Assembly: GCF_024218775.1 (NCBI RefSeq)
Contig: NZ_CP100404.1
Location: 3,038,001 to 3,102,000 of the forward strand
Length of the DNA stretch: 64,000 nucleotides
Reading direction: 5' to 3'
DNA from: Haloarcula marina
GTDB taxonomy: Archaea > Halobacteriota > Halobacteria > Halobacteriales > Haloarculaceae
Below the pieces are notes generated by a model. That model was not told where the DNA came from. It made no database searches and worked only from the letters and a program-made list of their open reading frames with translations. Below, piece by piece: positions 30,122-40,861 of this stretch. Positions within the stretch are counted from its first letter, which is position 1, and the number at the start of each line of letters is the position of its first letter. Both the position numbers and the translations under genes were made by a program.

Positions 30122-30982
30122 CTATTGCTCTCCCATCCTGTCTCCAGCAACCTTCCGTCCCTTCGTCGTCAACGCCACTTCGGTCCGTTCGCGGACGACG
30201 CTGATGACGTCGAGTTCGATGAGGCGGTCGAAAATCGCCTCGGCCTTCTCCACGTCGATGCCGACGAATCTCGGGATGTCGAACGGCGAAACGCCCGAGT
30301 GAAGCGCCATGATGACCCGTTTCTCCGTCGAGGAGAGGTCGAGGTCGGCGCGGTTCTGCTCGGCGCTGTCTTCGAGCATCGTCCGTAAGACGGTGGCCTG
30401 GAACTCCTCGCCCGCGAGGTGGGTCTCGACGCTGATGCCGTCCTGGCTGTGTTCGACCTGAATGACCGCCCGCTCGGCCCCCGAAACCTGCTTTTCGTCC
30501 ACGGTGAGGCCGCCGATGTCCGCGCGGACGATGTCGACTGCCTGCCCGTCGGCCAGCGCGAGGCGGAGCGCCTCGTCGGTCACTTTCAGTCGACCCTTCG
30601 TCCACTCCGTGTTCTGGACGACGCCGCCTTTCAGCGCGGGGTGTTGGACGAGGACGATGTGGCCGTCGAGGCTCGCGCGGTAGAGGTCCGTCTCGAACTC
30701 GGCGTGGTCCGACGCCGAGACGAGGAGCACGTCGCCGTCGACGTGAAAGCCCACGTACTCGGAGACCCCAGCGCTCTGCTGGTTCACGTCGAAGCGGTCG
30801 GCGATGCGGTCGATTTCGTCGAGCGCGACCTGTCGCTCGCTATCGCCCAGAATGGCGATGCGTTCGGTGGTGAGGATGAGTCGACAGTTGCGCCACTCGG
30901 CGTCGGTGAGCCGTTGGCCCTGCGAGACGGCCTGTAAGTACTGACCCTGCGTGTCGGCGATTTTCTTTTCCGTGTCGCTCAT
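30122..30982 (-). CDS. cheF: CheF-type taxis adaptor protein, copy 1
   Basis: The 286-aa protein matches the DUF439/CheF family, which links the Che system (CheY, CheC, CheD) to the archaellum in haloarchaea. Marks: EWRNCRLILTTERIAI near the N-terminus, YRASLDGHIVLVQHPALKGG in the middle, and a C-terminal winged-helix-like segment VIMALHSGVSPFDIPRFVG ... RTEVALTTKGRKVA. ATG 30982 (MSDTEKK) is chosen by homology with copy 2 at 39989, which has the same layout. No other che or arl gene is in the window. A TATA-like CTATATTC near 31024-31031 is about 45 bases upstream. Confidence 0.88.
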   Translation of the reverse strand: MSDTEKKIADTQGQYLQAVSQGQRLTDAEWRNCRLILTTERIAILGDSERQVALDEIDRIADRFDVNQQSAGVSEYVGFHVDGDVLLVSASDHAEFETDLYRASLDGHIVLVQHPALKGGVVQNTEWTKGRLKVTDEALRLALADGQAVDIVRADIGGLTVDEKQVSGAERAVIQVEHSQDGISVETHLAGEEFQATVLRTMLEDSAEQNRADLDLSSTEKRVIMALHSGVSPFDIPRFVGIDVEKAEAIFDRLIELDVISVVRERTEVALTTKGRKVAGDRMGEQ

Positions 30983-31101
30983 ACCCCGGAACCGGCCTCT
31001 CGTCCGTTCGTAATCGAGGGGAGTGAATATAGCTTCCGCCGCGAATGTCGCATCTGAGAACGGCAGCACCGCCGTCGCGCCGGGTTCCCTAGCGCCAAGG
31101 C

Positions 31102-31106
31102 TTATG
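31102..31106 (+). promoter_or_regulatory. TATA-like box of the first acs
   Basis: CTTATG is centred 27 bases before ATG 31131 and supports that start over the ATGs at 31023 and 31104. Confidence 0.4.
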
Positions 31107-31130
31107 ACCGCGCCGTCGAAGCATCGAATA

Positions 31131-33074
31131 ATGACGATGGGCGACGGAACCGGGCGCGATACGGCCATCGACGACCGGCCCGCCATCGACCCACCGGCGT
31201 GGTTCGTCGAGCAAGCGAACGTCTCGGACCCGTCAGTGTACGACGCCTTCGAAGCCGAGTGGCCCGAGTGCTGGGACCGTGCGGGCGAGTTACTCGACTG
31301 GGACGACCCCTACGACGCCGTGTTTCGCGGCGACGAGCGGCCCCCCTTCGAGTGGTTCCCCGGCGGGCGGTTGAACGCATCCTACAACTGCATCGACCGA
31401 CACCTCCCCGAGCGCAAGAACCAGTTGGCGCTCATCTGGGAGGGACCGCTCGGCGACGCCACGACCTACACCTACCGGGAACTCTATCGCGAAGTGAACG
31501 CCGTCGCGGCGGCGCTACGAGACCACGGCGTCGAGGCGGACGACGTGGTGACCATCTACCTCCCGATGGTCCCCGAACTCCCCATTCTGATGCTGGCCTG
31601 CGTCCGTCTGGGCGTCGTCCACAACGTCGTGTTCGCGGGCTTCTCGGCGGACGCGTTGGCCGAACGCATGGAGCGGACGGGGTCGGAACTGCTCGTGACC
31701 TGCGACGGTTACTATCGCCGCGGAAGCGCCGTCGCACAGAAGAACAAAGCCGACAACGCCCGCATCGCCGTCGACCAAGACGTGTCGGTCGTCGTCGTCG
31801 AGCGACTGGGGCTGGACGTGCACTTAGGCGACGGCTACTACGACTACGAGGCGCTGCGGGCGACCCACGACGGGGCGGAAGTCGACCCGGTGCCCCGGGC
31901 GGCCGACGACACCCTGTTTCGCATCTACACCTCCGGGACGACGGGCGAACCGAAGGCCGTCGACCACACCACCGGCGGCTATCTCGCCCACGTCGCGTGG
32001 ACCGCCCAGTCGGTGTTGGACATCAAACCGGGCGACACGTACTGGTGTTCGGCCGACATCGGCTGGATTACGGGCCACTCCTACATCGTCTACGGCCCCC
32101 TGTCGCTCGGGACGACCACCGTCCTCTACAACGGGACGCCGGACCACCCCGAGAAGGACCGCCTGTGGGAACTCGTCGAGCGGTACGCCGTCGACGTGTT
32201 CTACACCGCGCCGACGGCGGTGCGGGCGTTCATGAAGTGGGGCGAGGAACACCCCGCGGGCCACGACCTCTCCAGCCTCCGTCTGTTGGGGACCGTCGGC
32301 GAACCCATCGACGAGCGAGCGTGGCGGTGGTACCGCGAACACATCGGCGGCGGCGAGTGTCCCGTCGTCGACACGTGGTGGCAGACCGAGACGGGCGCGA
32401 TTCTCGTCTCGACGCTCCCGGGCGTCGACGGGATGAAACCCGGCGCGGCCGGGAAGCCCCTACCGGGCATCGAGACGGGCGTCGTCGACCCCGCTGGAGA
32501 GGGCGTCAGCGAGGGCGAGGCGGGCGAACTCGTCGTCACGCGACCGTGGCCCGGGATGCCCGACGCGCTTCGGACCGGCGAGGACTGGGGCGCGGCCGCG
32601 GCCCGCGGCGAGGAGTGGCGCTACTACCCCGAGGACGGCGCGACGATAGACGACGACGGCTACATCACCGTCCTCGGCCGGGTCGACGACGCCATCAACG
32701 TCGCGGGGCGGCGGTTCAGCACGATGGAGCTGGAGTCCGCGATTACGGGCGTCACCGGTATCGCGGAGGCCGCCGTCGTCGGCGCGGACCACGAGACGAC
32801 CGGGACGGCCCTGTACGCCTACGTCTCCGCCGAAGACGGCTACACCGAGGCCGACCTGCGCGAGCGAATCGCGGAGGCGGTGACCGACGCCATCGGCGGC
32901 GTCGCGAAACCCGAGGCGGTGGTGTTCACGCCGGACCTCCCGAAGACTCGCTCGGGGAAGGTGATGCGCCGCCTGCTGGCCGCCGTCGCCAACGACGACC
33001 CGCTGGGCGACATCAGCGCGCTCCGCAATCCCGAGATAGTCGGGGAATTGCAGTCGGCCACCCCCGATTCGTAG
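31131..33074 (+). CDS. acs: Acetyl-CoA synthetase paralogue (divergent A8 region)
   Basis: From ATG 31131 the protein has 647 aa, within the range of AMP-forming acetyl-CoA synthetases. Motifs: IYTSGTTGEPKAV (P-loop-like A3), PVVDTWWQTETG (acetate-pocket Trp and A5), YITVLGRVDD (A7) and LPKTRSGKVMRRLL with the catalytic, acetylatable Lys. In the A8 hinge the usual NVSGHRLGT is NVAGRRFST, so the CoA/hinge side differs from the second copy at 34977. It activates acetate or a similar short acid to acyl-CoA in the cytosol. It precedes a Bat-type regulator on the same strand. Substrate may not be acetate. Confidence 0.88.
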   Translation: MTMGDGTGRDTAIDDRPAIDPPAWFVEQANVSDPSVYDAFEAEWPECWDRAGELLDWDDPYDAVFRGDERPPFEWFPGGRLNASYNCIDRHLPERKNQLALIWEGPLGDATTYTYRELYREVNAVAAALRDHGVEADDVVTIYLPMVPELPILMLACVRLGVVHNVVFAGFSADALAERMERTGSELLVTCDGYYRRGSAVAQKNKADNARIAVDQDVSVVVVERLGLDVHLGDGYYDYEALRATHDGAEVDPVPRAADDTLFRIYTSGTTGEPKAVDHTTGGYLAHVAWTAQSVLDIKPGDTYWCSADIGWITGHSYIVYGPLSLGTTTVLYNGTPDHPEKDRLWELVERYAVDVFYTAPTAVRAFMKWGEEHPAGHDLSSLRLLGTVGEPIDERAWRWYREHIGGGECPVVDTWWQTETGAILVSTLPGVDGMKPGAAGKPLPGIETGVVDPAGEGVSEGEAGELVVTRPWPGMPDALRTGEDWGAAAARGEEWRYYPEDGATIDDDGYITVLGRVDDAINVAGRRFSTMELESAITGVTGIAEAAVVGADHETTGTALYAYVSAEDGYTEADLRERIAEAVTDAIGGVAKPEAVVFTPDLPKTRSGKVMRRLLAAVANDDPLGDISALRNPEIVGELQSATPDS

Positions 33075-33184
33075 CGCGTTTCGGATAGTTCGAATACAGC
33101 GAAACAGAATCCGAACCGATAGCGGGTAGATTCGCACCCGCCTCCGATAGAGTCGTCGACTCGGCCACCAAACAAACCATAGAG

Positions 33185-33190
33185 TTATTT
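33185..33190 (+). promoter_or_regulatory. TATA-like box of the Bat-type regulator
   Basis: TTATTT is centred 27-28 bases before ATG 33215, supporting MSGPAD as the N-terminus rather than the ATG at 33200. Confidence 0.5.
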
Positions 33191-33214
33191 CGCAAGCCTG
33201 TGCATTTTCGAAAC

Positions 33215-34906
33215 ATGTCTGGCCCCGCCGACGTACTCGGTCCCCGCGGGTACCAGCAGTTACGCCGGGCGGCCGAGACGCACCGTTCGGACCTCGTCTT
33301 GCGATTCGGCGCGGAAGTGGGACTGCGCCCGGCGGAGATGGCGCGAGTCAGGCCCGACGATGTGACCAGCGCGGGCGACCACTATTTCCTGACCGTTCGG
33401 GGAGAATCGGGCGTCACGCGGGAGGCCTATCTGCCCGCGAGCGTCGAACACGACCTGCGGAAGTACGCGAACACGGCCGGTGTCGACGGCGACGACCCGG
33501 TGTTTGCCGTCTCTGCCCGGCGACTCCAGATGCTCGTCGGCGAGGCGGCCGACCGGGCCGCCGAAACCGCGCCGCGGCTCGCCGACGTGTCCTCGCGCGA
33601 CCTGCGCTGGCGCTTCGCGGCGCGCTTGCTCGACGACGGCGTCCCGCCTCACGTCGTCTGCGCGTTGGGCGGGTGGGACCGCCTCGAACGACTCGCGCCC
33701 CTCCTGCCCGACCCCGATAGGGACGCCGTGGTCGAGGCCATCGAGCGCACCGAAGCCGCGCCGACACCGGCCCGCTTGCGTCGGGCGATTACCGTCGCCG
33801 CCGACGTGGGCGAGACGCTGGCGGGCGCGGCCACCGGCGAGGAGATAGAGCGACTCGTCTGCGAGCGACTGGCCGACACGGAGGGCTTTCGCTTCGCGTG
33901 GGTGGCCGAGCGCACCGGCGACGGCCTCACGCCCCGTGCCACGGCGGGTATCGACGATGCGCGGGTCGCCGAACAGGTGGCCGACCACGGCGAGACGGCG
34001 ACGGCGGCGATGGACAGCCACGACGTGCGCGTCACCGACGGGCGAGACGGTCCGACGGCCTTCGTGCCGATCGTCCGCGAGGACACCGCTGCCGGGGTGC
34101 TGGCGATCGGGACCCTCGGCGTCGTCGAGGACGCCGAACGCGACCTGCTGAGAGCGCTCGGCGCACAGGTCGGCGCGGCGCTGGCGGCCGTCGAGCGAAA
34201 GCGCCTCCTACTCGCCGACACGGTGACCGAACTGGCGTTCGAATGTACCGACAGCGAGGCGTTCACCGTCGGCCTGACGGCGACGCTCGACTGTACGCTC
34301 GAACTCTCGGGCGTCGTCCCCGTCGGCGGGCGCTCGCTCCTGTACTATCTGGTCGTCGAGGGCGCGGCCGCCGGACCGGTGCTGTCGTACGCCGTCGAGC
34401 ATCCGGACATCGACGACGCCCGATTAGTCGAGGACTACGGCGACGGCGCGCTCATCGAAGCGGTCGTGACGGCCGCGCCCGCCCTCGAACTCGTCGAGAG
34501 CGGCGGCCGCATCCGCACGCTCGCGGCCGACCGCGGTACGACGACCATCGAGACGGAACTGCCCGGGGACGTGGACCTCCGCGAAGTCGTCGACGCCGTC
34601 GTGGAGACGTACGCCGAGACGACGCTGACCGCGAAACGCGAGGCCGAGCGCTCCATCGAGACGGAGACGGGCTTTCGCGAACGCCTGTCGGACCGCCTCT
34701 CGGAGCGACAGGCAACCGTCCTCGAAGCGGCCTATCACAGCGGCTACTTCGAGTGGCCGCGCGGAACCACCGCCGAGGAACTGGCGGACTCGCTCGCCGT
34801 CTCCTCGCCGACGCTCCACAAACACCTTCGAAAGTCCCAGCAGAAGCTTCTGACGGCGTTTTTCACCGATGCGTCGACGGAACCGCCGACGGCGCTCGAC
34901 GAGTAG
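33215..34906 (+). CDS. Bat-type (HTH_10) regulator with GAF domain and integrase-like N-terminus
   Basis: The 563-aa protein has three parts. Residues 5-165 look like a tyrosine-recombinase catalytic domain: GLRPAEMARVRPDDV carries the first Arg (R38), VSSRDLRWRFAARLLDDGV matches the HxLR helix with Arg kept (R131) but His replaced by Arg (R128), GH is GG (152-153), and no Tyr occurs where the nucleophile should be (about 162). Residues 195-330 fit a GAF sensor, followed by the bacterio-opsin-activator middle region. Residues 500-555 are HTH_10 (LSERQATVLEAAYHSGYFEWP ... SSPTLHKHLRKSQQKL), split here around TTAEELADSL. It lies between two acs genes, so it probably regulates acetate genes. Confidence 0.85.
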   Translation: MSGPADVLGPRGYQQLRRAAETHRSDLVLRFGAEVGLRPAEMARVRPDDVTSAGDHYFLTVRGESGVTREAYLPASVEHDLRKYANTAGVDGDDPVFAVSARRLQMLVGEAADRAAETAPRLADVSSRDLRWRFAARLLDDGVPPHVVCALGGWDRLERLAPLLPDPDRDAVVEAIERTEAAPTPARLRRAITVAADVGETLAGAATGEEIERLVCERLADTEGFRFAWVAERTGDGLTPRATAGIDDARVAEQVADHGETATAAMDSHDVRVTDGRDGPTAFVPIVREDTAAGVLAIGTLGVVEDAERDLLRALGAQVGAALAAVERKRLLLADTVTELAFECTDSEAFTVGLTATLDCTLELSGVVPVGGRSLLYYLVVEGAAAGPVLSYAVEHPDIDDARLVEDYGDGALIEAVVTAAPALELVESGGRIRTLAADRGTTTIETELPGDVDLREVVDAVVETYAETTLTAKREAERSIETETGFRERLSDRLSERQATVLEAAYHSGYFEWPRGTTAEELADSLAVSSPTLHKHLRKSQQKLLTAFFTDASTEPPTALDE

Positions 34907-34941
34907 AGGCCGGGCAAATGTTGCCATAGTTAGACCCCCCG

Positions 34942-34948
34942 TTTATAC
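34942..34948 (+). promoter_or_regulatory. TATA-like box of the second acs
   Basis: TTTATAC is centred about 32 bases before ATG 34977, so a very short leader of a few bases is expected. Confidence 0.5.
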
Positions 34949-34976: not shown

Positions 34977-36971
34977 ATGTCAGATGATGACGTTCAACTC
35001 GAAGCCCGGCTGGAAGAACAGGCAGTCTTCGAGCCACCGGCGTCGTTCGTCGAGCAGGCGAACGTCTCCGATTCGGACATCTACGACGAGTTCGAGGAGA
35101 ACTGGCCCGAGTGCTGGGAGCGGGCGGCCGACCTGCTCGACTGGGACGACGAGTACGACACCGTCCTCGACGACTCCAACCCGCCGTTCTACGAGTGGTT
35201 CACGGGCGGGTCGCTGAACGCGTCGGCGAACTGTCTGGACCGCCATCTGGACGAGCGCGGCGACGAGGCGGCCATCGAATGGGTCGGCGAACCGACCGAC
35301 GAGGACGACATCACCTATACGTACGAAGACCTTCACCGCGAGGTCAACGAGTTCGCGGCCGCCCTGCGCGAACAGGGCGTCGGCGAGGACGACGTGGTCA
35401 CGATGTACATGCCGATGATTCCGCAGTTGCCGATCGCGATGCTGGCCTGCGCCCGCATCGGCGCGCCCCACTCGGTCGTGTTCGCCGGGTTCTCGGCGGA
35501 CGCGCTGGCGACGCGGATGAACGCCGCCGATTCTGAGTACCTCGTCACCTGTGACGGCTACTACCGACGCGGCGACCCCCTCGACCACCTCTCGAAGGCC
35601 AACGAGGGCCTCGAAGGCGTCGACCACGAGGTCCAGACGGCGGTCGTCGCCGAACGACTCCGCGACGGCGACGGCTTCGACCACGACTACGCCGACAATC
35701 AGGTGGCGTTCGACGACCTCGTCGCCGACCACGAGGGCGCGACGGTCGACCCCGTCTCCCGAGACGCCGAGGACATGCTCTTTCTCATGTACACCTCGGG
35801 GACGACGGGCGAACCGAAGGGCGTGAAGCACACTACCGGCGGCTATCTCTCCTACGCCGCGTGGACCTCCCAGTCCGTTCTGGACATCAAACCCGATGAC
35901 ACCTACTTCTGCTCTGCGGACATCGGGTGGATTACGGGCCACTCCTACATCATCTACGGCCCGCTGGCGCTCGGGACGACGACGATGATGTACGAGGGGA
36001 CGCCGGATTACCCCGACAAGGACCGCCTCTGGGAGATTATCGAAGACTACGAGGCCACCCAACTGTACACCGCGCCGACCGCGATTCGCGCGTTCATGAA
36101 GTGGGGCCAGGAGTATCCCGACAGCCACGACCTCTCCAGCCTGCGACTGCTGGGGACCGTCGGCGAACCCATCAACCCGCGGGCGTGGAAGTGGTACTAC
36201 AAGCACATCGGCGACGAGTCCTGCCCCGTCGTCGACACGTGGTGGCAGACCGAGACCGGCGGGATGATGCTGACGACCCTCCCGGGCGTCGGCGACATGA
36301 AACCCGGGTCGGCCGGGCCGCCGCTGCCGGGTATCAGCGCCGACATCGTCGACGTGAGCGGGAGTCCCGTCGAAGCGGGCGAGGCGGGCTATCTGATCGT
36401 CAACAAGCCGTGGCCCGGCATGTTGCGGACGCTGTACAACAACGACGAGCGCTTCATCGACGAGTACTGGCGCGAGTACTCCGACGTCGACAGCGACGAC
36501 CCGGCCGACTGGGTGTACTTCCCCGAGGACGGCGCGAAAATCGACCAGGACGGCTACATCACCGTCCTCGGTCGGGTCGACGACGTGTTGAACGTCTCGG
36601 GCCACCGCCTCGGAACCATGGAGATTGAGAGCGCCATCGTCGGCGTCGAGGGCGTCGCCGAAGCGGCCGTCGTCGGCGGCGAACACGAAATCAAGGGCGA
36701 GGCCGTCTACGCGTACGTCATCACGGAGGACGGCTACGAGGAGAACGACGAACTCCGTCAGCGCATCATCGAGGGCGTCGAGGACGCCATCGGCCCAATC
36801 GCCCGGCCCGAACAGGTCATCTTCACGCCCGAGCTCCCCAAGACTCGGTCCGGGAAAATCATGCGTCGACTGCTGGAAGACATCGCGAACGGCGAAGAGT
36901 TGGGCGATACGAGTACGCTTCGTAACCCCGACGTCGTCAGCGATATCCAGTCGAAGGTCAGCCGCGACTGA
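34977..36971 (+). CDS. acs: Acetyl-CoA synthetase (canonical copy)
   Basis: The 664-aa AMP-forming acetyl-CoA synthetase has the N-terminal FVEQANVSDSDIYDEFEENW, MYTSGTTGEPKGV, DTWWQTETGGMML (acetate-pocket Trp), RVDDVLNVSGHRLGTMEIE with the canonical A8 hinge, and LPKTRSGKIMRRLL with the catalytic Lys. It makes acetyl-CoA from acetate, ATP and CoA. It has its own TATA-like box and follows the Bat-type regulator by 70 bases. Downstream, after 63 bases, comes the symporter small subunit, so acetate uptake and activation genes are consecutive. Confidence 0.96.
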   Translation: MSDDDVQLEARLEEQAVFEPPASFVEQANVSDSDIYDEFEENWPECWERAADLLDWDDEYDTVLDDSNPPFYEWFTGGSLNASANCLDRHLDERGDEAAIEWVGEPTDEDDITYTYEDLHREVNEFAAALREQGVGEDDVVTMYMPMIPQLPIAMLACARIGAPHSVVFAGFSADALATRMNAADSEYLVTCDGYYRRGDPLDHLSKANEGLEGVDHEVQTAVVAERLRDGDGFDHDYADNQVAFDDLVADHEGATVDPVSRDAEDMLFLMYTSGTTGEPKGVKHTTGGYLSYAAWTSQSVLDIKPDDTYFCSADIGWITGHSYIIYGPLALGTTTMMYEGTPDYPDKDRLWEIIEDYEATQLYTAPTAIRAFMKWGQEYPDSHDLSSLRLLGTVGEPINPRAWKWYYKHIGDESCPVVDTWWQTETGGMMLTTLPGVGDMKPGSAGPPLPGISADIVDVSGSPVEAGEAGYLIVNKPWPGMLRTLYNNDERFIDEYWREYSDVDSDDPADWVYFPEDGAKIDQDGYITVLGRVDDVLNVSGHRLGTMEIESAIVGVEGVAEAAVVGGEHEIKGEAVYAYVITEDGYEENDELRQRIIEGVEDAIGPIARPEQVIFTPELPKTRSGKIMRRLLEDIANGEELGDTSTLRNPDVVSDIQSKVSRD

Positions 36972-37034: not shown

Positions 37035-37496
37035 ATGACAGATAAAGCCACGCACGAAGAGAGGAATCAATCGGCTGCGCGGACGGACGGCGGCGCGCCG
37101 ACGCAGGCCGCACAACAGCATCGACAGACGAACTATCTCGACGAGGAGGTGAACCTCCTGAAGCCGTCGACGGCGTTCATGCGCGACCACCTCAGAATCG
37201 TCTGGACGAGTTTCATCGTCTGGGCGCTCATCGTCTTCGGGCCGGTAACGCTGACGGCCGTCGCGCCCGGCGCGATGACGGTGACGATGCCGGTACTTGG
37301 CTTCCCGTTGCACTACTTCCTCGTCGCCTTCGGCGCGCCGACGGGCGCGCTCATCCTCGCGGCGGTGTACGCCCGTCAGCGTGACAAACTCGACGAGAAG
37401 TACGGTATCGACCACGACACCTCCGGAGCGCCCGAGGACGGCGACAGCGGTGAGACGGGCGACGCGACGGCCACCGACGGAGGTGTCGAGCGATGA
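37035..37496 (+). CDS. Sodium:solute symporter small subunit (DUF4212)
   Basis: The 153-aa protein has a polar N-terminus, two helices (IVWTSFIVWALIVFGPVTL and FPLHYFLVAFGAPTGALILA) and an acidic tail. The pattern YFLVAFGAPTGALIL..VYARQRDKLD is the DUF4212 small-subunit signature that accompanies SSS-family acetate or short-acid symporters. Its stop overlaps the start of the large subunit (ATGA at 37493), indicating coupled translation and a fixed ratio. Confidence 0.9.
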   Translation: MTDKATHEERNQSAARTDGGAPTQAAQQHRQTNYLDEEVNLLKPSTAFMRDHLRIVWTSFIVWALIVFGPVTLTAVAPGAMTVTMPVLGFPLHYFLVAFGAPTGALILAAVYARQRDKLDEKYGIDHDTSGAPEDGDSGETGDATATDGGVER

Positions 37497-39175
37497 CGGT
37501 TCCGTTGCAGGCCGAAGCGCTCGACATCTCGTTCAAACTCGTCCCGGCCATCATCGTCTTCCTGATGATGGCGTCGTTCCTCGTCATCGGCTACGTGTTC
37601 AAAGTGGCCGACACGGAGGGGATGTGGGTCGCTGGCCGGGGAATCGGCAACATCGAGAACGGAATGGCCATCGGGGCCAACTGGATGTCCGCCGCGTCGT
37701 ATCTGGGACTGGCGGGACTGGTCGCTCTCGCCGGGTTCTACGGCCTCGCGTTCATCGTCGGCTGGACGACGGGCTACTTCGTCCTGCTCATCTTCCTCGC
37801 GGCGCAAATGCGGCGCTTCGGGAAGTACACCGCGCCTGACTTCGTCGCCGACCGCTTCAACTCGCCGACTGCTCGCGCGATGGCCGCCTTCACGACGCTG
37901 CTCATCGCGTACGTCTACTCTGTCGGACAGGCCCGCGGCATGGGCCTCGTCGGGCAGTACGTCTTCGGTCTGGACATCATCCCGATGATTATCGTGATGA
38001 TGACCATCACCGTCGGTTACCTCGCGCTCTCCGGGATGCTGGGCGCGACGAAGAACATGGCGGTGCAGTACGTCATCCTCATCGTCGCGTTCCTCGCGGG
38101 CGTCTACGTGGTCGGCTTCACGCAGGGGTACTCCACCATCCTACCGCAGATTGAGTACGGCGCGCTCTTCACCGAACTCGGTCGTCAGTTCTCCGAGCCG
38201 TTCATCGGCGGGAACAGCTACTACCTGTGGGTGGCGACGGCGTTCTCGCTCATCTTCGGGACCTGCGGTCTCCCGCACGTGCTGGTGCGCTTCTACACGG
38301 TCAAGAGCGAGCGGACCGCCCGCTGGTCGACCGTCTGGGGGCTGTTCTTCATCCTCCTACTGTACTGGGCCGCGCCCGCGATGGCTGCCTTCGGCGTCGA
38401 CCTGTTCGCTGCCGTGAACAACATCTCTCCGGAGGCCGTCTTCACCGGCGAGCAGGCCATGTCCGGCGCGGAGGGCGACGTCATCGTCGTGCTGGCCGCG
38501 CAGTTCGCGAACCTGCCGCGGTGGTTCGTCGGCCTCGTCGCCGCCGGTGCGATGGCCGCCGCAATCGCGACGACCGCTGGGCTGTTCATCACCGCCTCCT
38601 CGGCCGTCGCCCACGACATCTACTCCGAACTCATCAACCCCGACGCGACCCAGCGCCAGCAGGTGCTCATCGGTCGGGCGACCATCGTCGTCATCGGCGC
38701 GCTGGTCACGGTGACCGCGTTCAACCCGCCGGCGCTCATCGGCGAACTCGTCGCCTACGCGTTCTCGCTGGCCGGAACCGTCCTGTTCCCGATGTTCTTC
38801 CTCGGCCTGTGGTGGGAGAACACCAACCGACAGGGGGCACTGGCCGGTATGAGCGTCGGCCTGCTGCTGTGGATAACCTCCATCATCAACAGCGTGCTGC
38901 CCGCCTACATCGGCGCTCTCGCCGATATCGCCGGTGGCTCCGGGCAGGCGCTCGTCCCGATTTACGCGCAGTACGTCCCGCCCATCGGGGCCGCACTCGT
39001 CGGCACGCCGCTGGTCTTCCTCGTCACCATCGCCGTCTCGCTGGTGACGCCGGAACCGCCGCTCGAGACCAAGCGGATGGTCCGACAGTGTCACAGCCCC
39101 GAACCGATGGGTCAGCAACAGACCGCAGAAGACATCGTCTCCAGTAACGGCGGCGAAACCCCCGCAGACGACTAA
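37493..39175 (+). CDS. Sodium:solute symporter large subunit (acetate permease-like)
   Basis: The 560-aa SSS-family transporter has 12-13 helices; its first loops read GMWVAGRGIGNIENGMAIGA and NWMSAASYLGLAGLVAL, followed by GLPHVLVRFYTVKSE and TTAGLFITASSAVAHD, all matching the ActP-like VC_2705 subfamily that pairs with DUF4212 proteins. It likely takes up acetate or a related monocarboxylate with Na+. Neighbouring acs genes support acetate. It is followed 2 bases later by a universal stress protein gene. Confidence 0.93.
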   Translation: MTVPLQAEALDISFKLVPAIIVFLMMASFLVIGYVFKVADTEGMWVAGRGIGNIENGMAIGANWMSAASYLGLAGLVALAGFYGLAFIVGWTTGYFVLLIFLAAQMRRFGKYTAPDFVADRFNSPTARAMAAFTTLLIAYVYSVGQARGMGLVGQYVFGLDIIPMIIVMMTITVGYLALSGMLGATKNMAVQYVILIVAFLAGVYVVGFTQGYSTILPQIEYGALFTELGRQFSEPFIGGNSYYLWVATAFSLIFGTCGLPHVLVRFYTVKSERTARWSTVWGLFFILLLYWAAPAMAAFGVDLFAAVNNISPEAVFTGEQAMSGAEGDVIVVLAAQFANLPRWFVGLVAAGAMAAAIATTAGLFITASSAVAHDIYSELINPDATQRQQVLIGRATIVVIGALVTVTAFNPPALIGELVAYAFSLAGTVLFPMFFLGLWWENTNRQGALAGMSVGLLLWITSIINSVLPAYIGALADIAGGSGQALVPIYAQYVPPIGAALVGTPLVFLVTIAVSLVTPEPPLETKRMVRQCHSPEPMGQQQTAEDIVSSNGGETPADD

Positions 39176-39177
39176 CA

Positions 39178-39639
39178 ATGTACGACAACATCCTCATCCC
39201 CACGGACGGAAGTGACACCGCGAACGTCGCCGTCGACCACGCGGTCGACCTCGCCGCGAAGTACGGGGCACGGCTCCACGCCCTGTACGTCGTCGACATC
39301 GACGCGGTGAACTTCGGCCTCGGCACCGAGCAGGTCGACCGCATCAAACAGGGCAACTTCGGCGAGATGACCGAGTTGCAGGACAAGGCCGAGAGCGCCA
39401 CCGGGGCCGTCGTCTCGGCCGCCGAAGAACACGATATCGAAGTCCACGAGGAGGTCCGCGTCGGCACGCCCCACGACGTCATCGCGGGCTACGCCGACAA
39501 CAACGACATCGACCTCGTCGTGATGGGGAGCCACGGCCGTTCGGGCGTCCGCCGTGCCCTGCTCGGTAGCGTCACCGAGCGCGTCCTTCGGTCGACCCAC
39601 GTGCCGGTACTGGTCGTCGACGAACACGAGGCGGAGTAA
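39178..39639 (+). CDS. Universal stress protein UspA family
   Basis: The 153-aa protein starts MYDNILIPTDGSDTANVAVD and ends with VVMGSHGRSGVRRALLGSV, the ATP-binding G-x2-G-x9-G(S) motif of ATP-binding Usp proteins. It lies 2 bases after the symporter and 3 bases before a small membrane protein, so it is part of the transporter unit. Usp proteins beside transporters may act as nucleotide-sensing regulators; this is inference. Confidence 0.95.
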   Translation: MYDNILIPTDGSDTANVAVDHAVDLAAKYGARLHALYVVDIDAVNFGLGTEQVDRIKQGNFGEMTELQDKAESATGAVVSAAEEHDIEVHEEVRVGTPHDVIAGYADNNDIDLVVMGSHGRSGVRRALLGSVTERVLRSTHVPVLVVDEHEAE

Positions 39640-39988: not shown

Positions 39989-40861
39989 CTACTCCCCACT
40001 CATCGCTTCGCTCGCCATATTCCGGCCCTGCGCGTTCAGCGCCACTTCCGTCCGCGTCCTGACCTCGTCCACGGCACCGGCGTCGAGCAAGTTCTGATAA
40101 ATCTCCTCGACTTCGTCGGGCGTCGTGCCGACGAAATCGGCCATCTCGAACGGCGAAACGCCCGAATACAGCGCCATCAGGACCTGACTCTCCATCTCCG
40201 AGAGTTCGTAATCGCCCTCTCGTCGGTCGACGACACCGGAGAACAGCGCTTCGAGCGCGGCGGTGTGGTGGCCCATCCCGGAGAAGTGCGTCTCGACGCT
40301 CCGGCCCTCCTCGTCGGTGTGTTCGACTTCGACGACCGAGCGCGTCTCGCCCATGACGGTGCTGTCGCCCGTTTCGATAGTCCCCACGTCGTCGATGTCG
40401 AAGGCCGTCGACCCGCCCCCGGGGAACTGGAGGGTGACCTCGCCGTCGTCGAGTCGAAACCGTGCCTTCGACCACTCGGCGTCCTCTTGGACGACGCCGC
40501 CGACGACGGCCGGGTGTTTCGCGAGGACGACCTGCCCGATAAGCGTCGCTCGACAGTACTCGAACGCGAAGTCGTCGACGTTTGACGCGTCGACCACGAG
40601 GACGTTGTTGCCGACTTCCAACGCCGTCGCGTCTGCGGGCGCGTTCTCGGGGGCGTCGGCATCGTCGACGAGCGAGACGTTCGCGTGCGGAATCGGCTGT
40701 TTGCTCCCGTTGGTCGCGAGGACGAGTCGCTTGTTGGTGACGATGAGGCGGCAGGAACGCCACTGCGGGTCGGTGACCTCCTCGCCGTCCCGGACGGCGT
40801 ACTGGAAATCCCCCGACGTGTCCAGTATCTTTCGTTCGTCACCACTCATAGCCGCAGTCAT
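39989..40861 (-). CDS. cheF: CheF-type taxis adaptor protein, copy 2
   Basis: The 290-aa protein shares its layout with copy 1: QWRSCRLIVTNKRLVLAT, YCRATLIGQVVLAKHPAVVGG, SQVLMALYSGVSPFEMADFVG and RTEVALNAQGRNMASE at the end. CheF proteins connect CheY signalling with the archaellum motor switch. ATG 40861 is supported by a TATATA box 25 bases upstream; an in-frame ATG at 40849 is the alternative. Like copy 1 it has no che or archaellum neighbour here, and it stands at the other end of the acetate locus. Confidence 0.88.
   Translation of the reverse strand: MTAAMSGDERKILDTSGDFQYAVRDGEEVTDPQWRSCRLIVTNKRLVLATNGSKQPIPHANVSLVDDADAPENAPADATALEVGNNVLVVDASNVDDFAFEYCRATLIGQVVLAKHPAVVGGVVQEDAEWSKARFRLDDGEVTLQFPGGGSTAFDIDDVGTIETGDSTVMGETRSVVEVEHTDEEGRSVETHFSGMGHHTAALEALFSGVVDRREGDYELSEMESQVLMALYSGVSPFEMADFVGTTPDEVEEIYQNLLDAGAVDEVRTRTEVALNAQGRNMASEAMSGE

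Follow-up and report, generated by a model that had tools for sequence, protein, structure and literature searches.

The regulator gene that lies between two acetyl-CoA synthetase (acs) genes of Haloarcula marina raises the question of what a tyrosine-recombinase domain does in a Bat-type regulator and, if it no longer cuts DNA, whether it may still read it. We analysed the whole stretch of DNA presented above, a window of 64,000 nucleotides. The open reading frame is real, with an ATG at 33215, a stop at 34906 (+ strand) and 563 amino acids, and the reading frame, Pfam and the full-length model together gave the order dead tyrosine-recombinase domain, GAF, BAT and HTH_10. Pfam matched Phage_integrase (PF00589) to residues 13-158 (E 1.1e-6, above the gathering score), and NCBIfam and PHROGs independently assigned the N-terminus to the archaeal XerA and integrase families. 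The GAF domain, a presumed sensor, occupies residues 209-324 (33839-34186, + strand; GAF_3, E 2.7e-6, above the cut-off, and the full-length model). The BAT domain (PF15915, E 1.5e-41) covers residues 335-488 (34217-34678, + strand) and the HTH_10 DNA-binding domain (PF04967, E 1e-19) residues 495-546 (34697-34852, + strand), so that by Pfam the protein has the BAT domain, the HTH_10 behind it and the additional sensor domain of a Bat-type HTH_10 regulator. The full-length model (pLDDT 80.8) confirmed this domain order and showed a flexible linker at about residues 179-185, a helix into the GAF domain, a long helix into the BAT domain and then the HTH_10. Longer fused members of the family (about 680-900 aa) have additional sequence between the recombinase and GAF parts, which, from open-frame lengths and a gap in the match, is taken to be PAS domains.

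The structure of residues 1-190 predicted by AlphaFold2 with 31 relatives (pLDDT 92.1, pTM 0.85) contained a tyrosine-recombinase catalytic-domain fold over residues 1-178 (33215-33748, + strand), without the Lys, His and Tyr. A sequence search of the PDB with the alignment of 31 family members returned archaeal XerA (4a8e, E 3.6e-17), the Foldseek matches listed for the predicted domain were all tyrosine recombinases (Cre, at E 7e-7, XerA, XerH, an integron integrase and Tn1549), and the best VIA-align match was XerA 5hxy (Z 18.8 over 167 residues; Z 17.0 for 4a8e). VIA-align also listed topoisomerase IB, a known structural relative of tyrosine recombinases, and the phage repressors SroF, YopR and MrpR. 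By both its fold and its sequence profile the domain belongs to the tyrosine recombinase superfamily. An N-terminal core-binding (SAM-like) domain, which is usual but not universal in active tyrosine recombinases, is absent, the recombinase domain beginning at residue 1 with nothing before it. The structure prediction and the structure searches (pLDDT 92, XerA Z 18.8 by VIA-align) bore out the recombinase fold that the preliminary description had read in the N-terminus, and Pfam did the same for the GAF and HTH_10 that it had placed behind the integrase part, adding the BAT domain between them. In the comparison of homologues, the N-terminal domain was a GAF or PAS segment in 0 of the 81 fused proteins. 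A misread GAF or PAS segment was rejected on the fold, on the single group that the fused proteins form in the tree and on the conserved acs neighbourhood.

Alignment of the regulator with Cre (translated from the P1 record) placed R38 at Arg I, R131 at Arg II and W154 at the Trp/His position (Cre W315), and showed S65 for Lys201, R128 for His289 and L163 for Tyr324, in a residue mapping that rests on the agreement of hhalign with MAFFT and on the structure matches, the hhalign score with Cre alone being modest (probability 51). The catalytic set R-K-H-R-H/W-Y reads R, S, R, R, W, L in the regulator. The preliminary description had seen both catalytic arginines within residues 5-165, in agreement with R38 and R131, and had reported the His, the GH motif and the Tyr as missing. 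The His (R128) and the Tyr (L163) are indeed gone, but the supposedly missing GH is a GGW, which is no lesion because W is a normal active-site variant (Cre W315). The missing Lys, the most constant lesion of the family, had escaped that description. Comparison of the 81 fused proteins with 21 free-standing relatives showed that Arg I is kept in 71 and 21, Lys in 0 and 20, His in 3 and 21, Arg II in 80 and 21, Trp in 74 and 21 and Tyr in 32 and 21, respectively. Judged by these residues, the free-standing enzymes look active, whereas the fused proteins do not. The lesions vary by lineage among the fused proteins, and loss of the Lys is the constant one. Three fused proteins (L121, L122 and L147) have all catalytic residues but the Lys and are perhaps intermediate stages of decay.

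The recombinase domain, fused or free-standing, was found in 153 of 194 haloarchaeal genomes, spread across the class. A tree of 97 domains, whose outgroup branch is long and whose root is uncertain, gathered all fused proteins in one group (SH-aLRT 98) next to the free-standing recombinases, and as read from this tree the fusion is an old haloarchaeal family of single origin. An acs gene lies directly upstream on the same strand in 80 of the 81 fused genes and downstream in 76, and about ten haloarchaeal families keep the regulator between two acs genes. In H. marina the regulator is preceded by acs1 (31140-33074, + strand; its frame opens at 31023 and the true start is uncertain) and followed by acs2 (34977-36971), a DUF4212 protein that is probably the small subunit of the symporter (37035-37496), a sodium:solute symporter (SSF) that is probably an acetate transporter (37493-39175) and a universal stress protein at the end of the conserved cluster (39178-39639), all on the + strand. 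Within the DNA looked at, DUF4212 and the symporter were found downstream of 58 of the 81 fused genes. Genes for CheF-arch, an archaeal chemotaxis adaptor, stand on both sides of the acetate cluster (30122-31186 and 39989-40861, both on the - strand). In Haloferax denitrificans (L057:5959-6621) only about 220 aa of the regulator can be read before the frame is broken, immediately past the recombinase domain; the gene is either a pseudogene or the site of a sequencing error.

The DNA in front of the regulator contains candidate sites for such a domain. Between acs1 and the regulator is a gap of 140 bp with two perfect palindromes of the form TTTCG-N16-CGAAA, the only perfect ones within the window. 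Palindrome 1 (33079-33104) lies 4 bp after the acs1 stop codon, and palindrome 2 (33188-33213) has its left arm joined to the TATA-like TTATTTCG and leaves 1 bp between its end and the regulator ATG. The pattern was first seen by eye, as palindromic pentamers in roughly twelve loci, which are also among the 81 of the test, and over these 81 the N16 form was present at 9/10 or better in 58 acs-to-regulator gaps, 50 of them perfect (shuffled mean 1.55, maximum 6). The N15 form was found in 22 loci, a spacing of 14 in none and of 17 in two; most other spacings were near background, and only 2 of the 81 loci had neither the N15 nor the N16 palindrome. Across loci, the median distance from the acs stop to the start of palindrome 1 is 4 bp, while palindrome 2 lies 30-58 bp before the regulator start, is usually preceded by TTA and likely overlies the TATA box of the regulator. 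The two sites are about 96-112 bp apart in most genomes, and where both copies reach at least 9/10 they agree in spacing within a genome, at either 16 or 15. The helical phasing of the two palindromes (period 10.5) gave a suggestive R of 0.53 over all loci, but these are related and the distinct distances gave a p of only about 0.04, so that we make no claim of phasing.

Comparison with loxP, which in the P1 record is ATAACTTCGTATAGCAT-ACATTATACGAAGTTAT, i.e. TTCG-N16-CGAA, showed that the half-site core and the spacing are shared. The palindromes have the two inverted arms and the loxP spacing of a Cre-lox-like site, with N15 in some clades. A scan of 292 genomes for paired sites hit 27 of them, in every case directly beside a recombinase-domain gene, and 0 with the reversed-pattern control. 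The genome of H. marina holds five perfect single sites, of which two are at the regulator locus; the reversed pattern gave about two, and the three further sites (L174, L175 and L178) were treated as chance. The palindrome was found upstream of acs1 in 1 of 80 loci and upstream of acs2 in 0 of 77, and the acs1 and acs2 promoters are not its targets, because it is at or below background there. The preliminary description had taken the position between the acs genes to suggest the target of the regulator. The position is conserved, but the lox-like sites lie only between the upstream acs gene and the regulator, at neither acs promoter. One fused gene (L135), the only such case found, has no acs gene upstream; it keeps a weak palindrome 2 (8/10) at its start, and palindrome 1 was not seen there.

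We then considered the part of the domain that would contact such sites. R102-R103-L-Q105-M106 (33518-33532, + strand) is the near-invariant start of the helix (residues 101-115) equivalent to helix J of Cre (R259, E262, G263), and two alignments place R102 on Cre R259, Q105 on E262 and M106 on G263. Position 10 of the loxP arm is a C-G pair to which Arg259 of Cre is hydrogen-bonded, and with Ala in place of this Arg the specificity at that position is abolished (PMC6486577); R259 and G263, together with K43, discriminate loxP from rox (PMC7438526). The RRxQM residues are among the most conserved of the fused family, with R102 and R103 in 81 of 81 proteins, Q105 in 77 and M106 in 80, and the recombinase domain has 13 invariant columns. 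The equivalent positions are variable in the free-standing haloarchaeal enzymes (n = 21), as would be expected for enzymes with differing targets. An enzyme that was turned into a sequence-specific binding domain would be expected to lose catalysis while its reading face stayed frozen, and the family shows this pattern. The idea that the domain serves to bind DNA is strengthened by the frozen helix and by the lox-like palindromes at the promoter of the regulator itself.

The acs2 promoter has a distinct element, ATAGTTAG-N8-TTTATA (34926-34947, + strand), a candidate HTH_10 upstream activating site with a TATA box. By a strict pattern, ATANNTAG was found 8-12 bp before a TTA(T) box at the acs2 promoter in 52 of 77 loci (shuffled mean 0.3), probably a lower bound since the pattern, judged by eye, misses related variants in some lineages, and it was found at 0 of 81 regulator promoters and in 0 of 80 loci upstream of acs1. 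Of the 19 genomes with an acs2 homologue and without the domain, 18 lacked the acs2 element; the palindromes were at background in this set, and no HTH_10 gene was detectable within 1.5 kb of acs2. The loss of the palindromes in domain-less genomes is silent on which domain reads them, because the whole arrangement is usually missing there. The ATANNTAG element near the acs2 TATA box occurs almost only in genomes with the regulator. At one locus (L136) acs2 looks decayed and the element is still present.

The computed fold, loss of catalytic residues, frozen helix-J face, synteny, palindromes of fixed geometry, their co-occurrence with the domain and the distinct acs2 element led us to a model in which we infer the assignment of domains to sites, the autorepression, the activation of acs2 and the ligand. 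We give a probability of about 0.6 to the reading that the dead recombinase module controls its own gene on lox-like operators while the HTH_10 activates the acs2-transporter operon. The N-terminal module would derive from a small haloarchaeal tyrosine recombinase, as a catalytic domain that no longer cleaves strands but still recognises sites in the manner of a recombinase. As a dimer it would grip the TTTCG-N16-CGAAA palindromes in the acs1-regulator gap, and, by covering the palindrome over the TATA box and the start, the regulator would repress its own gene. The C-terminal HTH_10 would bind ATANNTAG next to the acs2 TATA box and activate the acs2-transporter operon, and the GAF domain, with the putative PAS domains in many relatives, would sense the metabolic state. 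A catalytic domain without a core-binding domain may bind weakly. In a further-reaching form, which is speculative and rather doubtful, two dead-recombinase dimers on the two sites would pair as in a synapse and loop out the regulator promoter, with the sensor and the HTH_10 coupling the loop to activation of the acetate operon; such bridging is possible, and its support goes no further than the regular pairing of the palindromes.

The HTH_10, a bona fide DNA-binding domain conserved as strongly as the recombinase part, could also bind the palindromes, which would leave the recombinase fold with dimerisation or allostery only. We consider this unlikely, since the half-sites are spaced as for a recombinase, 21 bp arm to arm as in loxP, and the base-reading face of the recombinase is frozen despite the lost catalysis. 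Moreover, the genome has about nine other GAF-BAT-HTH_10 matches and more HTH_10-only proteins, yet only five perfect sites, and an HTH_10 activator would fit better on the different element near the acs2 TATA box. It is improbable that the palindromes are the sites of another transcription factor or promoter features and that the recombinase domain has some other job. One of them does overlap the TATA region, in which some sequence conservation is to be expected, and CGAAA resembles archaeal BRE elements. However, palindrome 1 lies a few base pairs behind the acs stop, far from any start, the spacing is fixed at 16 or 15 and never 14, and in the 292 genomes scanned paired sites stand only beside the recombinase domain.

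Two other readings concern the domain itself. The different decay of the catalytic residues in different lineages would suit a functionless relic of the fusion, but the fold and a surface independent of catalysis, with its invariant columns, are conserved over about ten families, which makes a relic highly improbable. It is scarcely credible that the recombinase still works and excises or inverts the 110-bp piece of promoter DNA flanked by the sites: the paired lox-like sites, the Tyr kept in 32 of 81 proteins and the three proteins that lack only the Lys speak for it, but the Lys is absent from 81 of 81 and the His from 78, the Tyr has been lost repeatedly and the segment is in place in the assembled loci. 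Activity was rejected on these residue grounds.

Comparison of the preferred reading, a dead recombinase module on its own operators, with known systems showed precedents among prophage repressors. MrpR (YopR, of the Bacillus prophage SP-beta) and SroF (of phage phi3T) have a recombinase fold without the catalytic residues, like the regulator, and are used in transcription regulation; MrpR binds DNA and represses, has no recombination activity, and its authors suspected more such cases (PMC10516654). Structure comparison of the regulator domain with MrpR, YopR and SroF structures gave Z 13.0 (8a0a), 13.8 (8bpz) and 15.2 (9rgl) at 8-11% identity. The regulator shares with MrpR the recombinase fold with a broken active site, but not the build of a core-binding and a catalytic domain with no others, as GAF, BAT and HTH_10 are attached instead. 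MrpR and SroF are phage lysis-lysogeny repressors, neither metabolic nor archaeal, and have no sensor or second DNA-binding domain fused to them, whereas the haloarchaeal regulator has both and stands at a metabolic locus. By this analogy the haloarchaeal family would, in principle, work as MrpR does, but the protein is of a different kind, and we class it among the Bat-type HTH_10 regulators, as one whose recombinase domain has been exapted.

The C-terminal two thirds of the regulator correspond to the GAF-BAT-HTH_10 arrangement of other Bat/HTH_10 proteins. Those of the same genome align with it from about residue 180 only, and none among the matches listed has the recombinase domain. Cre-loxP of phage P1 and archaeal XerA-dif have the same catalytic-domain fold, and with Cre-loxP the regulator system shares the TTCG-N16-CGAA geometry and the Arg of the reading helix; unlike these systems, the regulator lacks the cleavage residues and the core-binding domain, and its sites are locus-specific beside a promoter. 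The closest relatives of the N-terminal domain are free-standing haloarchaeal recombinases of about 200 aa (42% identity), which have the same limits and no core-binding domain but are unfused, with intact R, K (20 of 21), H, R, W and Y and a variable reading helix.

It appears that an old DNA-shuffling enzyme became a metabolic gene switch. If true, a mobile-element enzyme was converted to a transcription-factor domain in an archaeal metabolic regulator with its reading helix and site geometry kept, and a regulator of acetate activation in haloarchaea is identified, with a concrete operator and residue pair in genetically tractable organisms (Haloferax, Haloarcula). New here are the lox-like palindromes in the acs-to-regulator gap, usually two, one of them apparently over the regulator's TATA box. 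No description of the fusion, the acs-regulator-acs cluster or the operator was found in the open-access literature, outside which most subscription journals fall, so that this absence is weak evidence. A free-standing recombinase of this widespread family is encoded in the same genome (L009:2193-2792, - strand; C1, about 1821700-1822290), and further examples are L154-L173. Three copies of one XerA-like recombinase gene (L010, L011 and L012, at G000:C1:2857465, C1:2875316 and C3:4182), one of them on an 18-kb contig, probably represent a mobile element or a small plasmid that is also present twice in the chromosome.
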